A stretch of 34,253 nucleotides of DNA. Source: an uncultured Candidatus Saccharibacteria bacterium. Its GTDB lineage: Bacteria > Patescibacteriota > Saccharimonadia > Saccharimonadales > Saccharimonadaceae. This document shows, piece by piece, positions 19,488 through 26,036 of this stretch. The notes beneath the pieces are model-generated. The model had not been told where the DNA came from. It saw nothing but the letters and a program-made list of their open reading frames with translations, and did no database searches. The position numbers and the translations under genes are program-made. Each line of letters opens with the position of its first letter. The stretch's first letter is position 1. The stretch is from NCBI GenBank assembly GCA_946500965.1, contig CAMMXR010000002.1, positions 1 through 34,253 of the forward strand, given 5' to 3'.

Positions 19488-19581
19488 CGCCGGCCTAGAG
19501 CCGGCCAAACTGCACCTCACGTTATCTATTAATCTCGCCTTGGGCCCTGCGTCCGAGACTCAAAAGGGAAGGAAATTAACC

Positions 19582-20295
19582 ATGAACCAAACCCAAATCG
19601 CCGAATACCAAAACTTTGCCCGCGAAAAGCTCGGCTTCGAGTTCCACGATATTGACCTCTTAATCACCGCCCTCACTCACCGCAGCTACGTCAACGAACA
19701 CCGCGCCAGTGTCAAGGAACACAACGAGCGTCTGGAGTTTCTCGGCGACGCCGTTCTGGAACTCGTCACCTCTGATTTTCTCTACCGCAACTACCAGCAG
19801 CCGGAAGGAATTATGACCGCCTGGCGCGCCGCCTTGGTCCGCACCGAAAGCATCGGCGCCGCCGGCGAAGAACTCGGCTATGCTCCGCTCGTCCGCCTCT
19901 CTAAGGGCGAGAAGCACGGCTCCGACCGCGCCCACGCCGTCATCCTCGCCGATTGTTTTGAGGCCGTCATTGGCGCCATCTATCTTGACCAAGGCTACGA
20001 CACCGCCGCCGCCTTCATCGCCAAGCACATCCTGGTCAAGATTGACCAAATCCTCGCTGACGGCAGCTGGCGCGACCCCAAATCCTATCTCCAAGAACTC
20101 GCCCAGCACCACGACTCTGCCACCCCCTCTTACCGCGTCCTCGGCGAAGACGGCCCCGACCACGACAAGACCTTCACCGTCGGCGTCTTCGTCGCCGGCA
20201 AGCAGCGCGGTCGCGGCACTGGCCACTCCAAGCAGGAAGCCGAAGGCGCCGCCGCCGCCGAAGCCGTCAAATACTACCTCCGCCGCCAGTCCTAG
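19582..20295 (+). CDS. rnc: Ribonuclease III
   Basis: I take the ATG at 19582 (237 residues), which has GGAAGGAA upstream; an earlier frame start at 19540 has none. The catalytic domain carries the RNase III signature HNERLEFLGDAVLELV with Glu52 and Asp56, and the second acidic pair in ILADCFEAVIGAIYLDQG (Asp124, Glu127). A dsRNA-binding domain follows at about 166-234 (DPKSYLQELAQHH ... GHSKQEAEGAAAAEAVKYYL). It cleaves double-stranded RNA in rRNA and mRNA processing. It lies in a ribosome-related block, with the rpsP promoter starting three bases after its stop. Confidence 0.97.
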   Translation: MNQTQIAEYQNFAREKLGFEFHDIDLLITALTHRSYVNEHRASVKEHNERLEFLGDAVLELVTSDFLYRNYQQPEGIMTAWRAALVRTESIGAAGEELGYAPLVRLSKGEKHGSDRAHAVILADCFEAVIGAIYLDQGYDTAAAFIAKHILVKIDQILADGSWRDPKSYLQELAQHHDSATPSYRVLGEDGPDHDKTFTVGVFVAGKQRGRGTGHSKQEAEGAAAAEAVKYYLRRQS

Positions 20296-20356: not shown

Positions 20357-20719
20357 ATGCTCGCGATTCGTATGCAACGTAATGGCCGGACTCACACCCC
20401 TGTGTACCGGATAGTCGTCCAAGAAGCGCAGCGCCACCCGCTCTCGGGTCGTGTTGTTGCCGAGGTCGGCAATTATAACCCTGAGACTAAGAAAACGGTC
20501 CTTGACCAAGAGAAAATCGGGTTCTATCTCGCTCACGGCGCCCAGCCCTCGTCTCGGGTGGCCTTCATCCTGAAGCAGAACGGCATCAAACTGCCCGCCT
20601 GGTACCAGGAACGCCCCGCCCGCCACGCTCAGGCTAAGCACGCCGACAAGCTCCGCAAGAACCAGCCCAAGGAAGCGCCCGCCGCAGACGCAGCCGACGC
20701 CGAAGCCGCGGAAGCCTAG
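20357..20719 (+). CDS. rpsP: 30S ribosomal protein bS16
   Basis: The protein has 120 residues. The bS16 core is clear: MLAIRMQRNGRTHTPVYRIV, then EVGNYNPETKKTVLDQEKIGFYLAHGAQPSSRVAFILKQNG (listed here by its ends: residues about 36-76). The remaining 40 residues go beyond the usual 80-90 and consist of a basic stretch and an Ala/Glu/Asp-rich tail ending ADAEAAEA. It is paired with the downstream KH protein, as rpsP-khpA pairs are in many bacteria. Confidence 0.97.
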   Translation: MLAIRMQRNGRTHTPVYRIVVQEAQRHPLSGRVVAEVGNYNPETKKTVLDQEKIGFYLAHGAQPSSRVAFILKQNGIKLPAWYQERPARHAQAKHADKLRKNQPKEAPAADAADAEAAEA

Positions 20720-20819: not shown

Positions 20820-21236
20820 ATGGCAACCATTGACCAGCAATTTGTAGAATACATCGTTAAAACCCTTGTCAACAACCCTGACAAAGTCGTCGTGGATCGT
20901 GAAATTGACGAGCGCGGCGTTCTGCTCTCGCTCAGCGTTGACCCCGAAGACGTCGGTCGCGTGATTGGTAAGCGCGGCGCCACCGCCCAGTCCATCCGCA
21001 CCCTGCTCCGTGTACTCGGCACTAAGAACGGCGCCCGCTACAACCTCAAGATCGTCAATACTGACGAAGAAGGCGCCGCCCCAGTCGAGCATGATCAGCC
21101 TACCGAACTCGCTGACGCAGCCGAAGCCGAAGTCACCGCTGCCGCTGATGAAGCTGCTGCGACGGCTGCTGAGGGCGACGATCTCGCCGAGAAAACTCGT
21201 GCCGAGCTGGCCGACCTTGACGACCTGGACATCTAG
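20820..21236 (+). CDS. khpA: KH-domain RNA-binding protein (KhpA/YlqC family) with an acidic tail
   Basis: The protein has 138 residues. The first 80 residues are a single KH domain: DQQFVEYIVKTLVNNPDKV, a strand region, and the RNA-binding GxxG loop in VGRVIGKRGATAQSIRTLL. KhpA proteins bind RNA, often with KhpB, and their gene usually follows rpsP, as here. The family is normally 75-80 residues; the extra 55 residues form an Ala/Glu/Asp-rich acidic tail ending DLDDLDI. A strong terminator follows. Confidence 0.92.
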   Translation: MATIDQQFVEYIVKTLVNNPDKVVVDREIDERGVLLSLSVDPEDVGRVIGKRGATAQSIRTLLRVLGTKNGARYNLKIVNTDEEGAAPVEHDQPTELADAAEAEVTAAADEAAATAAEGDDLAEKTRAELADLDDLDI

Positions 21237-21289: not shown

Positions 21290-21314
21290 AAAAATACCCC
21301 AATGGGGTATTTTT
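21290..21314 (+). terminator. Strong bidirectional intrinsic terminator after khpA
   Basis: An 11-base-pair perfect stem (AAAAATACCCC with GGGGTATTTTT) around an AAT loop. The A- and T-tracts allow action on both strands. Confidence 0.92.
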
Positions 21315-21366: not shown

Positions 21367-21395
21367 TTGTGTTTTTCCGCCGCGTCCTGTATAAT
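21367..21395 (+). promoter_or_regulatory. Promoter of the candidate small RNA
   Basis: TTGTGT (21367-21372), exactly 17 bases, TATAAT (21390-21395), preceded by an AT-rich stretch. No open reading frame with a ribosome site follows before the terminator at 21461. Confidence 0.75.
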
Positions 21396-21400
21396 CAAAA

Positions 21401-21490
21401 CAGTTCGGAAGAACATATGGCTAACTGCGAGCCAACATAAAGTTGAGAGCTTATATGTTCAAAAAGCCACCCTTTTGCGGTGGTTTTTTG
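21401..21490 (+). ncRNA. Candidate structured small RNA of unknown class, about 90 nt
   Basis: The transcript expected from the promoter at 21367 has a GTTC-GGAA-GAAC hairpin (21403-21414). An eight-base-pair closing stem, GAACATAT (21411-21418) with ATATGTTC (21453-21460), encloses GGCT/AGCC (21419-21422 with 21430-21433, seven-base loop) and AAC/GTT (21434-21436 with 21442-21444), a three-way-junction layout. It ends with a terminator hairpin and six T. The first hairpin and the closing stem compete for GAAC, and CAGTT (21401-21405) could instead pair with AACTG (21423-21427), so alternative folds exist. It resembles none of tmRNA, SRP, RNase P or 6S RNA in motif or size. No plus-strand gene follows for over 1 kb, so it is not an obvious leader. 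Confidence 0.65.
21461..21489 (+). terminator. Intrinsic terminator of the candidate small RNA
   Basis: CCACC (21467-21471) pairs with GGTGG (21479-21483) around a seven-base loop, extended by the flanking A-tract and T-tract (AAAAA with six T). Confidence 0.8.
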
Positions 21491-21663: not shown

Positions 21664-22302
21664 TTAGAAACGTGACAAATGGTGTCGCTTCAGGTAATCC
21701 TCAATGGACAGCAGCAAACTGGTCTCGTCCAGCGCCGTGTAAAGAATACAGCATTCTTCGCCCGACTTGTCCAAGCGGGTCGCAAACACCGCCCAGCCGG
21801 TCGGCGCCGTAATCCGGATCGTATCCTGTGTAGACAGCTGCCGGTGCGCAATCAGTGGCAGCCACTCATCAGTCAGTTCGCCCTTGAACTCCAGCGGGGA
21901 ATTGCAATAAACCTGCTCCAGGCGGGCCGGGCCATGATCCGACTTGAAGGCCACCGGAAAACTCCGGCCGGCCGGTTCTGCGTGCCGCGTCTCGGTAATC
22001 CCGTATTCGCGCCACATCATCATGGACAGGTCGCCCCGCTTAAAATGCGCTTCCACGGTTTTGAACTGCTGCTTCAGCTCCAGGGTGCCAGGCACCAGCG
22101 CAAACCGTCGCCGGAAAGACTTAGCCCGCGGCAGTCGGCTGTGATACTCGCAGATAAAACTCCGACCATCCAGCTTGACCGTCCAGCCTTTCAGCTCAAT
22201 CATGCGCCGAAACTGCCCGTCCGCGTTCAGATTCTGACTCAAACTGTCACTGCTCCGAATCCCACCAAAACCACTTGCCGTCACTTCAACTTTAATCACC
22301 AT
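21664..22302 (-). CDS. Unrecognised soluble protein, second gene under the duplicated promoter
   Basis: I place the start at the ATG at 22302 (212 residues, beginning MVIKVEVTASGFGG), with GAGGAG six bases upstream. A longer frame beginning at 22395 would run through the promoter and is rejected. The protein has no signal peptide or membrane span. It has a strand-rich, charged composition with scattered cysteines (FICEY, EECCILY) and a helical C-terminus (LSIEDYLKRHHLSRF). No domain is recognised. By eye it is not similar to the protein at 9047-9667, though both have about 210 residues, stand alone on the minus strand and share the 40-bp promoter. A stretch of 71 bases separates its stop from the terminator. 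Confidence 0.7.
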   Translation of the reverse strand: MVIKVEVTASGFGGIRSSDSLSQNLNADGQFRRMIELKGWTVKLDGRSFICEYHSRLPRAKSFRRRFALVPGTLELKQQFKTVEAHFKRGDLSMMMWREYGITETRHAEPAGRSFPVAFKSDHGPARLEQVYCNSPLEFKGELTDEWLPLIAHRQLSTQDTIRITAPTGWAVFATRLDKSGEECCILYTALDETSLLLSIEDYLKRHHLSRF

Positions 22303-22356
22303 AAGGTACTCCTCTCTGCGCTTCCTGCGCGGGTTCTCTAGGGGCTTGAGGCTCTT

Positions 22357-22396
22357 ACCCCCCTTCATTATATCACAGATAAGCATAAAAGTCAAG
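22357..22396 (-). promoter_or_regulatory. Copy B of the duplicated 40-bp strong promoter module
   Basis: On the minus strand: TTGACT, 17 bases, TATAAT, GAAGGGGGGT; 39 of 40 bases equal 9700-9739 (one C/G difference inside the spacer). It drives the gene starting at 22302 with a leader of about 45-50 bases. Confidence 0.85.
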
Positions 22397-22640: not shown

Positions 22641-25600
22641 GTGAGCAAAACAACCACTACTGGTCGTCGCGTATTTTTCACCGAAGGCGACCAAGCCCTC
22701 CCCATTCCTGATCTGACGGCCCATCAGAAGGATAGCTGGGAGGATTTTGTCAAATCTGGTCTCCGGGAAGTGTTCAACGAACTCAACCCGATTGACGACT
22801 ACACCGGGCAAAAACTATCCTTGCGCTTCAAGGATTATTATTTCAAAACTCCGGCCGAGGACGAGAAAACCGCCAAATACAACCTGTCCACCTACGCCGC
22901 CCCGCTGCATGTAATCGTAGAGCTGACCAACAAGGTCACCGGCGAGGTCAAGGAGCAGGATATTTATTTCGGCGACTATCCCTGGATGACCGAGCGCGCC
23001 ACCTTTATTATCAACGGCACCGAGCGCGTGGTGGTTTCCCAGCTGATTCGTTCCGCCGGGGTTTTCTTCACCGCTGACGAACACAACGGCAAGCGCTACT
23101 ACGGCGCCAAAGTGATTCCGGGCCGCGGAGCCTGGCTGGAGTTTGAGACCACCCCGGGTGGCTGCATTTACGTTAAGATTGATCGCCGCCGCAAGATTCC
23201 CATCACCACCTTCCTGCGCGCGCTCGGCATCGCTTCCGACGAGGAAATCCGCGCCCAGTTTGCCGAGATTGACAACGGCCCCATCAGTTACATCAACTCC
23301 ACCCTGGAGAAAGACACCTCCACCAGCCAGGCTACGGCGCTGCTTGAAGTCTATCGCCGGCTGCGCCCGGGTGATCTCGCTACGGTTGAGAACGCCAAGT
23401 CTATGATTGAGCGCACTTTCTTTGATTATCGCCGCTACGATTGTTCGCGGGTTGGTCGCTTCAAGCTCAACCGCCGGCTCGGCTTTGATACCCCGAACGA
23501 CGCCGCCCACCGCACCCTGCAAATGCAGGATGTGCTGGCCATCATCAGCGAAATTATCCGCCTCAATAACACCCAGGAACCGGCAGATGACATTGACTCG
23601 CTGGCAAATCGCCGGGTCAAGCTGGTCGGCGAGCTGGTTCAACGTCAGTTCCGTCTCGGGATGCTCCGCCTCCAGCGCAACATTCTGGACCGGATGTCAA
23701 TGGCTGACCCCGAAGAAGTCACCCCTTCGCAGCTGCTCAACTCCCGCCCGGTGGTGGCCGCGGTCAAGGAGTTCTTCTCCAGCTCTCAGCTTTCGCAGCT
23801 GATGGACGAGGTCAACGGCTACTCCGAGCTCGCTCACAAGCGCCGCCTCTCTAGTATGGGCCCCGGCGGTCTGACGCGGGAACGCGCCGGCTTTGACGTC
23901 CGCGACGCTCACCCCACCCACTACGGCCGCATCTGCACCGTAGAGACCCCGGAAGGTGGCAACGTCGGTCTGGTCTTGAACCTGGCGACCTATGCTCGCA
24001 TCAACGAATACGGTTTCATTGAAGCCCCCTACCGCGTGGTCAAAAACGGCAAGGTGACCGACGAAGTGGTTTACGTAGACGCCGCCACCGAGGAAGATAT
24101 GATTATCGCCGACGCCTCAGTTAAACTCAATGACAAGGGCGAATTCGTGGAAGATTGGGTCTCCGCCCGGGTCAAGGGCCGCCCCAGCCAGGTCGCTTCC
24201 AACCTCGTCACCCACATTGACGCCGCTCACAAAGAGATTCTCGGCACCTCGGCCAGCCTGATTCCGTTCGTAGAGAAAAACCGCGTTGACCGCTCCTTGA
24301 TGGCCTGCGCCATGCAAAAGCAAGCCGTGCCACTGCTCAAGAACGACGCCCCGATCGTCGGCACCGGCATTGAGCACGAAATCGCAATGAATACTTCGCA
24401 AGTTGTGGTCGCTGCAGCTGCCGGTGAGGTGGTGAAGGCGGACGGCATCTCGGTCATCGTCAAATACAAAGACGGCGAAAAAGAATATCCGCTGGAGCAC
24501 TTCCAGAAGACCAACGACGACCGCTGCTACAACCAGCGTGTCAAGGTCGTGCGCGGCCAGAAGGTCAAAAAAGGCGACATCCTGATTGAGGGCGCTTCTG
24601 TCACGAATGGTGAGCTAGCGCTCGGTAAAGACCTCCTGGTAGCCTTTATGCCCTGGCGTGGTTATAATATGGATGACGCCATCGTGATCTCTTCCCGTTT
24701 AGTAGAGGACGATGAACTTACTTCCATCAACATCAAGGATTTTGACGTGGAAGTGCGCGAAACCAAGCTCGGACCCGAGCAGGTCACTCGCGACATCCCG
24801 AACGTTCCCGAGAAAAGTCTGCGCCACCTTGGCGAAGACGGTATCGTAGTTGTGGGTTCCGAAGTTCAGCCTGGCGACATCTTGGTCGGTAAAATCACCC
24901 CGAAAGGTGAGCAGGAACTCAGCTCTGAGGAGCGCCTGCTCCGTGCCATCTTCGGTGAGAAAGCTAAGGACGTCCGCGACACTTCGGTTCGCATGGATGG
25001 CTCTTCCACCGGTAAGGTGGTCGGCGTGCGGGTCTATACCCGCGAACAGGGTCACGAACTCAAAGCCGGCGTGTTGATGCAGATTCGGATTTACGTGGCC
25101 GAGATGCGCAAAATCAGCGTCGGTGACAAAATCGCCGGTCGCCATGGTAACAAAGGTGTCGTCTCCCGGATTCTGCCGGTGGAAGATATGCCGTTCATGG
25201 AGGACGGGACGCCAATTGACATTCTGCTCAGCCCGATGGGCGTGCCAAGCCGTATGAACCTCGGTCAGCTGTTTGAGGTCCACCTCGGTATGGCGGCTCG
25301 GGCGCTCGGTTACGAAGTTGCTACCCCCTCCTTCAACGGTGTGCCGGACGAAGTGATCTCTGATCAACTAGAGAAGGCCGGCTTCAGCCGTGACGGTCGC
25401 GTGCAGCTCTATGATGGTCTGACCGGCGAACCTTTCAACGAACGCACCTCGGTCGGCGTGATGCATATGCTAAAACTGCACCACATGGTGGAAGACAAGA
25501 TTCACGCTCGCTCCACTGGTCCCTACACTACTGTCACTCAGCAGCCGCTCGGTGGTAAAGCTCAGAACGGTGGTCAGCGCTTCGGGGAAATGGAGGTCTG

Positions 25601-26036
25601 GGCGTTGGAAGCCTACGGTGCCGCCACCACCCTGCAGGAAATGCTCACGATTAAATCTGATGATGTCTATGGTCGTGCGCAAGCCTACAAGTCAATCATC
25701 AAGCGTGAACCGATTGAAGGTCCCAAGCTGCCGGAAGGCTTCAATGTTCTGGTTAAAGAGTTCCAGGGGTTGGGCCTGAAGGTGGATCTGCTGGAGCAGG
25801 GTGAATCCAAAGATGCTGGTGAAGTAATTGAGAAGACTTCGCGCGAGATTGAACAAGAGAATGATGACAGCCGCATCTATGCCCAGCACGCGCACCACGC
25901 ACCGGCGGACACGATTGTGGATCTGGATGAAGAAGAAAAGGAAGTGATGGACGCAGAGGGCGTCAGTATAAGAGAGGCCGACGAGCTTGACGAATCGCCT
26001 GACGATTCCGAGGCTGGCCTTGGAGAGGAGTTATAA
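22641..26036 (+). CDS. rpoB: DNA-directed RNA polymerase beta subunit
   Basis: The protein has 1131 residues, GTG start behind GAGGAAAC. Conserved blocks run in order: the N-terminal lobe, the rifampicin region FFSSSQLSQLMDEVNGYSEL followed by AHKRRLSSMGPGG, TVETPEG, the DDAIVIS block, GEKAKDVRDTS, GDKIAGRHGNKG, and the C-terminal clamp contact PFNERTSVGVMHMLKLHHMV and GQRFGEMEVWALEAYGA. Major rifampicin contacts (equivalents of Q513, D516, H526, S531) are kept, while F514 is Leu, N518 Val and L533 Met. The C-terminus has an acidic extension ending AGLGEEL. rplJ/rplL do not precede it; rpoC follows one base after its stop. Confidence 0.98.
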   Translation: MSKTTTTGRRVFFTEGDQALPIPDLTAHQKDSWEDFVKSGLREVFNELNPIDDYTGQKLSLRFKDYYFKTPAEDEKTAKYNLSTYAAPLHVIVELTNKVTGEVKEQDIYFGDYPWMTERATFIINGTERVVVSQLIRSAGVFFTADEHNGKRYYGAKVIPGRGAWLEFETTPGGCIYVKIDRRRKIPITTFLRALGIASDEEIRAQFAEIDNGPISYINSTLEKDTSTSQATALLEVYRRLRPGDLATVENAKSMIERTFFDYRRYDCSRVGRFKLNRRLGFDTPNDAAHRTLQMQDVLAIISEIIRLNNTQEPADDIDSLANRRVKLVGELVQRQFRLGMLRLQRNILDRMSMADPEEVTPSQLLNSRPVVAAVKEFFSSSQLSQLMDEVNGYSELAHKRRLSSMGPGGLTRERAGFDVRDAHPTHYGRICTVETPEGGNVGLVLNLATYARINEYGFIEAPYRVVKNGKVTDEVVYVDAATEEDMIIADASVKLNDKGEFVEDWVSARVKGRPSQVASNLVTHIDAAHKEILGTSASLIPFVEKNRVDRSLMACAMQKQAVPLLKNDAPIVGTGIEHEIAMNTSQVVVAAAAGEVVKADGISVIVKYKDGEKEYPLEHFQKTNDDRCYNQRVKVVRGQKVKKGDILIEGASVTNGELALGKDLLVAFMPWRGYNMDDAIVISSRLVEDDELTSINIKDFDVEVRETKLGPEQVTRDIPNVPEKSLRHLGEDGIVVVGSEVQPGDILVGKITPKGEQELSSEERLLRAIFGEKAKDVRDTSVRMDGSSTGKVVGVRVYTREQGHELKAGVLMQIRIYVAEMRKISVGDKIAGRHGNKGVVSRILPVEDMPFMEDGTPIDILLSPMGVPSRMNLGQLFEVHLGMAARALGYEVATPSFNGVPDEVISDQLEKAGFSRDGRVQLYDGLTGEPFNERTSVGVMHMLKLHHMVEDKIHARSTGPYTTVTQQPLGGKAQNGGQRFGEMEVWALEAYGAATTLQEMLTIKSDDVYGRAQAYKSIIKREPIEGPKLPEGFNVLVKEFQGLGLKVDLLEQGESKDAGEVIEKTSREIEQENDDSRIYAQHAHHAPADTIVDLDEEEKEVMDAEGVSIREADELDESPDDSEAGLGEEL

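Follow-up and report, generated by a model that had tools for sequence, protein, structure and literature searches.

The window, which is the whole 34,253-nucleotide stretch of Candidatus Saccharibacteria DNA analyzed here, contains the genes rnc (19540-20295), rpsP (20357-20719) and khpA (20820-21236, plus strand), followed in order by a small RNA unit, a minus-strand open reading frame and rpoB (22641-26036, plus strand). The khpA product was identified as a KH-domain RNA-binding protein (Pfam PF13083, E 9e-23), and rpoB was assigned from its sequence and position, without a family search. A perfect inverted repeat, AAAAATACCCC-AAT-GGGGTATTTTT, is located between khpA and the RNA unit at 21290-21314 of the plus strand. 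Judged by its sequence, this repeat should be a terminator that ends khpA transcription and sets khpA apart from the RNA unit.

The promoter of the RNA occupies 21367-21395 of the plus strand and consists of a -35 element, TTGTGT (21367-21372), a spacer of 17 bases and a -10 element, TATAAT (21390-21395). The -35 element is weak, with 3 of 6 consensus bases, and the promoter was therefore not listed by a consensus scan. Among related copies of the RNA, 109 of 110 have a promoter that agrees with the consensus at 8 or more of 12 bases, at a spacing of 16-18. The predicted plus-strand transcript of ~88 nt (21402-21489) would start 7 nt past the -10 element and end in a T run. An intrinsic terminator, CAAAAAGCCACCC...GGTGGTTTTTT (21461-21489, or 21467-21489 in a narrower delimitation), was assigned from the fold and from related terminators; its final letters are TTTTTT. 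The unit has its own promoter and its own intrinsic terminator, the features by which an independently transcribed bacterial small RNA is recognized.

Downstream of the RNA, the nearest gene is transcribed toward it, and 1.1 kb separates the RNA from rpoB, the next gene on the plus strand. The intervening minus-strand open reading frame (21664-22395, 243 aa) had no Pfam match; it is accompanied by a promoter-like TTGACT-17-TATAAT at 22395-22367 of the minus strand and by a minus-strand terminator at 21590-21569.

Predicted fold of the RNA

The window RNA folds better than shuffled versions of its sequence (z = -3.83), with none of 200 shuffles as good. Folding places a 5' hairpin, P0 (GUUC-GGAA-GAAC), at 21403-21414 and an 8-bp closing helix, P1, at 21411-21460, formed by GAACAUAU (21411-21418) and AUAUGUUC (21453-21460) and also indicated by base exchanges within the family. 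P0 and P1 have the same GAAC in common. P1 is extended inward by the pairing of GGCU (21419-21422) with AGCU (21448-21451), leaving U21452 bulged, so that the helix in the window's genus (GAACAUAU-GGCU with AGCU-U-AUAUGUUC) is longer than the core found across the order. The inner part of P1 is the counterpart of the order-wide GCUC/GAGC helix described below.

Enclosed by P1 are a conserved bulge or loop motif, AACUGCGAG (21423-21431; UGCGAG across the order), and a hairpin, Pb (CAAC-AUAAA-GUUG, 21433-21445), in which 21433-21436 pair with 21442-21445. An alternative local hairpin, Pa (GGCU-AACUGCG-AGCC, 21419-21433), pairs 21419-21422 with 21430-21433; it is mutually exclusive with inner P1 and has one C (21433) in common with Pb. 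The 3' strand of Pb opens a conserved block, GUUGAGAGCUUAU (21442-21454), which reads GGAGCUUUAUGUG across the order.

The original prediction had described a unit with an exact 17-base promoter spacing, a transcript of ~90 nt, an eight-base-pair closing stem around two inner hairpins and an intrinsic terminator, set in a gap of more than 1 kb devoid of plus-strand genes; all of these elements are present in the sequence, rpoB at 22641 being the next such gene. The competing pairings that it had pointed out are also borne out: GAAC is used in both the 5' hairpin and the closing stem, and the pairing of CAGTT with AACTG has its counterpart in sister genera, in the 5' hairpin AGTTC...GAACTGCGAG. 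In the window's own genus, the P0 pattern AGTTC...GAAC is found in many copies.

Conservation within the genus and family

A DNA search of 100 relatives returned clear copies in approximately 25 genomes of the same genus. These copies are all intergenic, each has a promoter and a terminator, and most are located near khpA, rpsP, rnc or rpoB. The named records carrying the pattern are Ca. Saccharibacteria, with one exception titled only "bacterium". Look-alikes that matched in the terminator only (L021-L023, L029, L030) were discarded. Two blocks, CTNACTGCGAG and GTTGAGAGCTTAT, are conspicuous in the alignment of 25 copies; the ACTGCGAG of the bulge motif and the block at 21442-21454 are unchanged in all 25. 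A sequence-only model built from 24 of these copies (R1) matched 150 of 174 genomes of the genus, including 103 of 110 good genomes, nearly always with one copy per genome and in a few genomes with two matches.

Paired changes were observed in two parts of the fold. The local hairpin Pa, around ACUGCGAG, varies in step within the genus (AAGCU/AGCUU, AAGCC/GGCUU, AAGUA/UACUU). In outer P1, two pairs show two-sided AU/GC exchange, in 8 and 5 copies, among 29 distinct family copies picked by a C[AG]T anchor; the covariation score of P1 in this set was 0.233 versus 0.183, and 12 of 500 shuffles scored as high. Covariation support for P1 in the genus is accordingly moderate. The terminator loop of many genus copies (L004, L006, L007, L009, L015 and others) contains an extra GTTGAG(AG), a motif that is also present in the core; the window copy has a terminator loop without it.

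Conservation across the order

R1 also gave weak matches in other genera and families which, on reading, follow the same plan. Of these weak matches outside the genus, 18 were used to build a second model (R2), which matched 92 of 149 genomes of the order, most of them not used in building it. In a phylum-wide search all matches but one fell within the order, and the outlier (G487) was taken as a chance match, the core being absent on reading. A third model (R3), consisting of the core stems, matched 97 of 295 genomes of the class, a figure that is not a census as R3 misses the window's genus, where the core is changed; one weak match lay outside the order. Nine R3 loci were read, eight of them from previously unseen genomes: khpA is upstream in all nine, trmD is downstream in eight, and Pb or a close variant can be paired in all nine. 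Since the three models were built stepwise from one another's matches, independent support comes from the gene order, to which none of the models had access, and from the new genomes, whose loci repeat both the core and the order rnc-rpsP-khpA-RNA-trmD. With the covariance models, the RNA is recovered from the majority of the order's sampled families and practically nowhere outside the order.

The order-wide core consists of GCUC (often AAGCUC) paired with GAGC (often GAGCUU), a 5' bulge of (N)UGCGAG, and Pb, which begins right after the bulge and ends right before GAGC; on the 3' side a conserved tail, UUUAUGUG, is followed by the intrinsic terminator. GCGAG is unchanged in all 70 order-wide copies. 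With pairs counted in a register set by a fixed rule rather than by best pairing, 70 distinct copies, from which the loop had been removed, gave 92.3% paired positions in Pb and two-sided changes in 4 of its 5 pairs. The whole core was 93.8% paired in the 70 distinct copies versus 81.1% in shuffles and at most 60% when the register was slid. The whole-core covariation score was 0.359 versus 0.125 (s.d. 0.010) in shuffles, a statistic that is inflated by kinship in sets of related sequences.

The GCUC/GAGC helix itself is nearly invariant. Its flanking pair alone shows a two-sided change, from AGCUC/GAGCU to GGCUC/GAGCC in five copies of one family, and 14 copies are unpaired there. Free folding of two diverse copies produced the same bulged helix. 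The Pa-type alternative, GCUC/GAGC around a UGC loop, is equally invariant across the order and uninformative for covariation. The invariant bases are those of the bulge, of the GCUC/GAGC helix and of the tail; none of them lies in Pb, the hairpin that covaries freely. Conservation in relatives decisively rejects a chance origin, and it is nearly certain that a gene for a small non-coding RNA is present and that the fold is real.

Gene order around the RNA

In 71 of 79 order-level loci the RNA has khpA upstream on its own strand. A same-strand trmD follows downstream in 66 of 74 order-level copies, sometimes only 9-20 bases past the terminator, and the complete series khpA-RNA-trmD is found on one strand in 62 of 74 order-level copies outside the window's genus. 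At these loci (L205-L280) the RNA occupies the khpA-trmD gap, a place where many bacteria carry rimM. Among 114 unique copies, mostly from the window's genus and its family, rpoB is next in 62, trmD is downstream in 9, and in 13 the RNA and khpA are divergently oriented.

In many order-level loci the khpA stop codon and the -10 TATAAT overlap (GATCTCGATATATAATA), and the placement of the RNA promoter inside the end of khpA means that protein and promoter constrain each other. At L205-L213, L089, L076 and other loci, the conserved KhpA C-terminus LDDLD[IVL] encodes the promoter spacer.

Comparison with known RNA families

No Rfam 15 family reached its gathering threshold in the window, and none was credible up to E = 10. 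The best sub-threshold match was RNAI (RF00106; 26.1 bits against a gathering threshold of 47, E = 0.026), an antisense RNA of plasmid replication. The likeness consists of a short stem-loop RNA with a terminator of similar sequence, but the match rests largely on this terminator and is absent in deeper copies. Ten deeper loci compared with Rfam gave two sub-threshold matches alone, both on the minus strand, and no tRNA or tmRNA was found.

Another parallel is offered by the small RNAs associated with KhpA or KhpB in Streptococcus, Clostridioides and Fusobacterium, which are likewise small and independently transcribed in hosts that encode KhpA; here the gene adjoins khpA. Those RNAs are diverse in sequence, in contrast to the present one, for which KhpA binding is a candidate property. 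Among KhpA-associated small RNAs we know of no case in which one conserved RNA is linked to khpA. A search of the open-access literature on small RNAs of Saccharibacteria and Patescibacteria yielded no description of such RNAs, and none of the RNA studied here. It is considered a new family within a known broad kind, the independently transcribed bacterial small RNAs, and an earlier mention outside the open-access literature is possible.

This evidence supports the original prediction, which had called the unit a freestanding gene for a small RNA of unknown class; the covariance search returned no known class. Two of the signs that it had named for follow-up were found: compensatory changes occur among relatives, across the order in Pb and within the family in outer P1, and the same unit recurs near rpsP, khpA or rpoB in related genomes.

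Alternative explanations

The position of the RNA upstream of trmD raises the idea of a cis-acting trmD leader, whether riboswitch, protein-binding leader or attenuator, with read-through controlled at the terminator; the genus copies that stand free would then be relics or have been re-purposed. The resemblance to riboswitches and ribosomal-protein leaders is evident in the compact conserved fold followed by an intrinsic terminator and in the frequent location upstream of trmD outside the genus; in most families trmD lies within tens of bases, making a cis role there possible. The RNA differs from such leaders, however, in having no obligate downstream gene. A regulated gene directly downstream on the same strand is absent in the window, with its convergent neighbor and distant rpoB, and in most of its genus. 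Furthermore, the core, promoter and terminator are kept in more than 100 family copies without a detected trmD. As judged by eye, terminator stems vary freely while the core stays unchanged, which leaves no conserved anti-terminator pairing visible. Where trmD does follow, it often has a -10 of its own: about half of the loci have a good -10, often TG-extended (TGNTATAAT), in the gap that separates trmD from the RNA terminator (23 of 45 scoring at least 6), and the mean best -10 score in this gap was 5.29 versus 4.29 in shuffles (45 loci). Because family copies mostly lack trmD and 13 are divergent from khpA, the function of the RNA needs no cis target, and a separate RNA is favored since trmD is mostly not downstream in the genus and family and has its own -10 elsewhere. 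A trmD leader is thus quite unlikely, and the sequence evidence is best read as an independently transcribed, trans-acting RNA and not as a riboswitch leader. It is likely that this separate RNA acts in trans through protein or RNA contacts.

An ordinary base-pairing small RNA that silences or activates several mRNAs through its UGCGAG and GAGCUUUAUGUG segments would also act in trans. The conserved segments are accessible, and each molecule has two to four occurrences of the UGCGAG/UUGAGAG motif, which genus copies have in the terminator loop as well. Targets were sought in two relatives (G315 and G272; 800 kb each, with simple gene calls and without accessibility). With composition controlled, no 6-8-mer complementary to the core was enriched at translation starts in these two genomes; the words that were enriched there are promoter elements or composition effects. 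In a ranking by duplex energy, the orthologue overlap of predicted targets between the two genomes was near that of permuted controls. CAUAAG was rejected as a seed: it looked enriched in both genomes, but in G272 no conserved segment of the RNA pairs with it. The excess of CATAAG ahead of genes, seen in both genomes, may reflect a role in the promoter spacer of this lineage. The null seed search speaks weakly against a small RNA with broad mRNA seed pairing and is compatible with single targets; the RNA also has more invariant positions than a seed needs, and we regard this explanation as rather unlikely. The 3' block could instead be a ribosome-binding start-stop element (GGAG-CUUU-AUG-UGA), through which the RNA would capture ribosomes or code for a minimal leader. 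In 73 of 74 order-level copies, NTG (AUG or UUG) comes 5-9 nt after GAGC; UGA stands directly after AUG in 40 of 74, with the AUG in most of these 7 nt from the start of GAGC. About half of the copies nevertheless do not have the UGA, many genus copies have CUG at the start position or a frame that runs on, and the spacing to GGAG is short, all of which makes such an element very improbable.

A divergent SRP RNA or 6S RNA would account for a universal, single-copy RNA of ~100 nt with its own promoter and terminator in genomes where both RNAs were otherwise undetected. SRP RNA (RF00169, RF01854) shares the housekeeping-type distribution and size but matches neither in sequence nor in structure. 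Its models gave no match above cut-off in the window's own genome or in 20 relatives and none to the window RNA up to E = 10; a hunt for the SRP core pattern in two genomes gave nothing convincing, and no conserved GGAA tetraloop was found across relatives. The Ffh M domain (PF02978) was detected in none of the 20 relatives and in all 14 control genomes, and SRP RNA identity was ruled out on account of the relatives being without Ffh. The 6S model (RF00013) gave no match in the window's own genome up to E = 1, and 6S RNA, a long open hairpin, has a different fold from the window RNA. Either identity can practically be dismissed. As a separate observation, the SRP pathway seems to be absent in the 20 Saccharibacteria genomes, which yielded neither SRP RNA above cut-off nor the Ffh M domain; two SRP subunits are missing in many CPR bacteria (PMC8080830).

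Proposed function and significance

On balance, the trans-acting RNA is probably the RNA part of a small ribonucleoprotein with a housekeeping or broadly regulatory role. As read from the sequences, most genomes of the order would produce one such RNA, transcribed from its own promoter and ended by its own terminator, which would then act in trans. Its bulge, GCUC/GAGC helix and tail would be recognized by a protein or a single conserved partner RNA; recognition of this kind suits the RNA better than ordinary mRNA seed pairing because its invariant bases lie outside the covarying hairpin.

KhpA would be the first candidate for the partner. KhpA or KhpA/B binds small RNAs in Streptococcus, Clostridioides and Fusobacterium (PMC7196914, PMC12456014), and by analogy with this binding and from the gene neighborhood we tentatively propose KhpA here. 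The position is weak evidence for such a partnership, since the cluster rnc-rpsP-khpA-trmD is conserved irrespective of the RNA. Two GAGC copies are available for pairing with the GCUC strand, and binding of a protein or other partner could change the fold. A fold that switches in the cell, at which the original prediction had hinted, is possible from the sequence: the alternative pairings are conserved, their invariant bases fitting a switch and two uses of one sequence alike. The fullest form of the proposal is speculative and rather unlikely: a lineage-defining housekeeping RNA that would be a ribonucleoprotein subunit, possibly with KhpA, required for growth in the order, with no counterpart elsewhere and with GCUC switching between its GAGC partners.

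Saccharibacteria are tiny parasitic bacteria that live as epibionts and have reduced genomes. A single-copy, order-wide, structured RNA within the core translation and RNA-processing cluster rnc-rpsP-khpA-trmD provides a concrete starting point for work on post-transcriptional control in such epibionts, and its covariance model provides an added marker RNA for annotating the lineage. The RNA can be tested directly in Saccharibacteria that are cultured and genetically tractable. It may also be a defined natural ligand for KhpA, an RNA-binding protein of many bacteria whose recognition rules are unclear.
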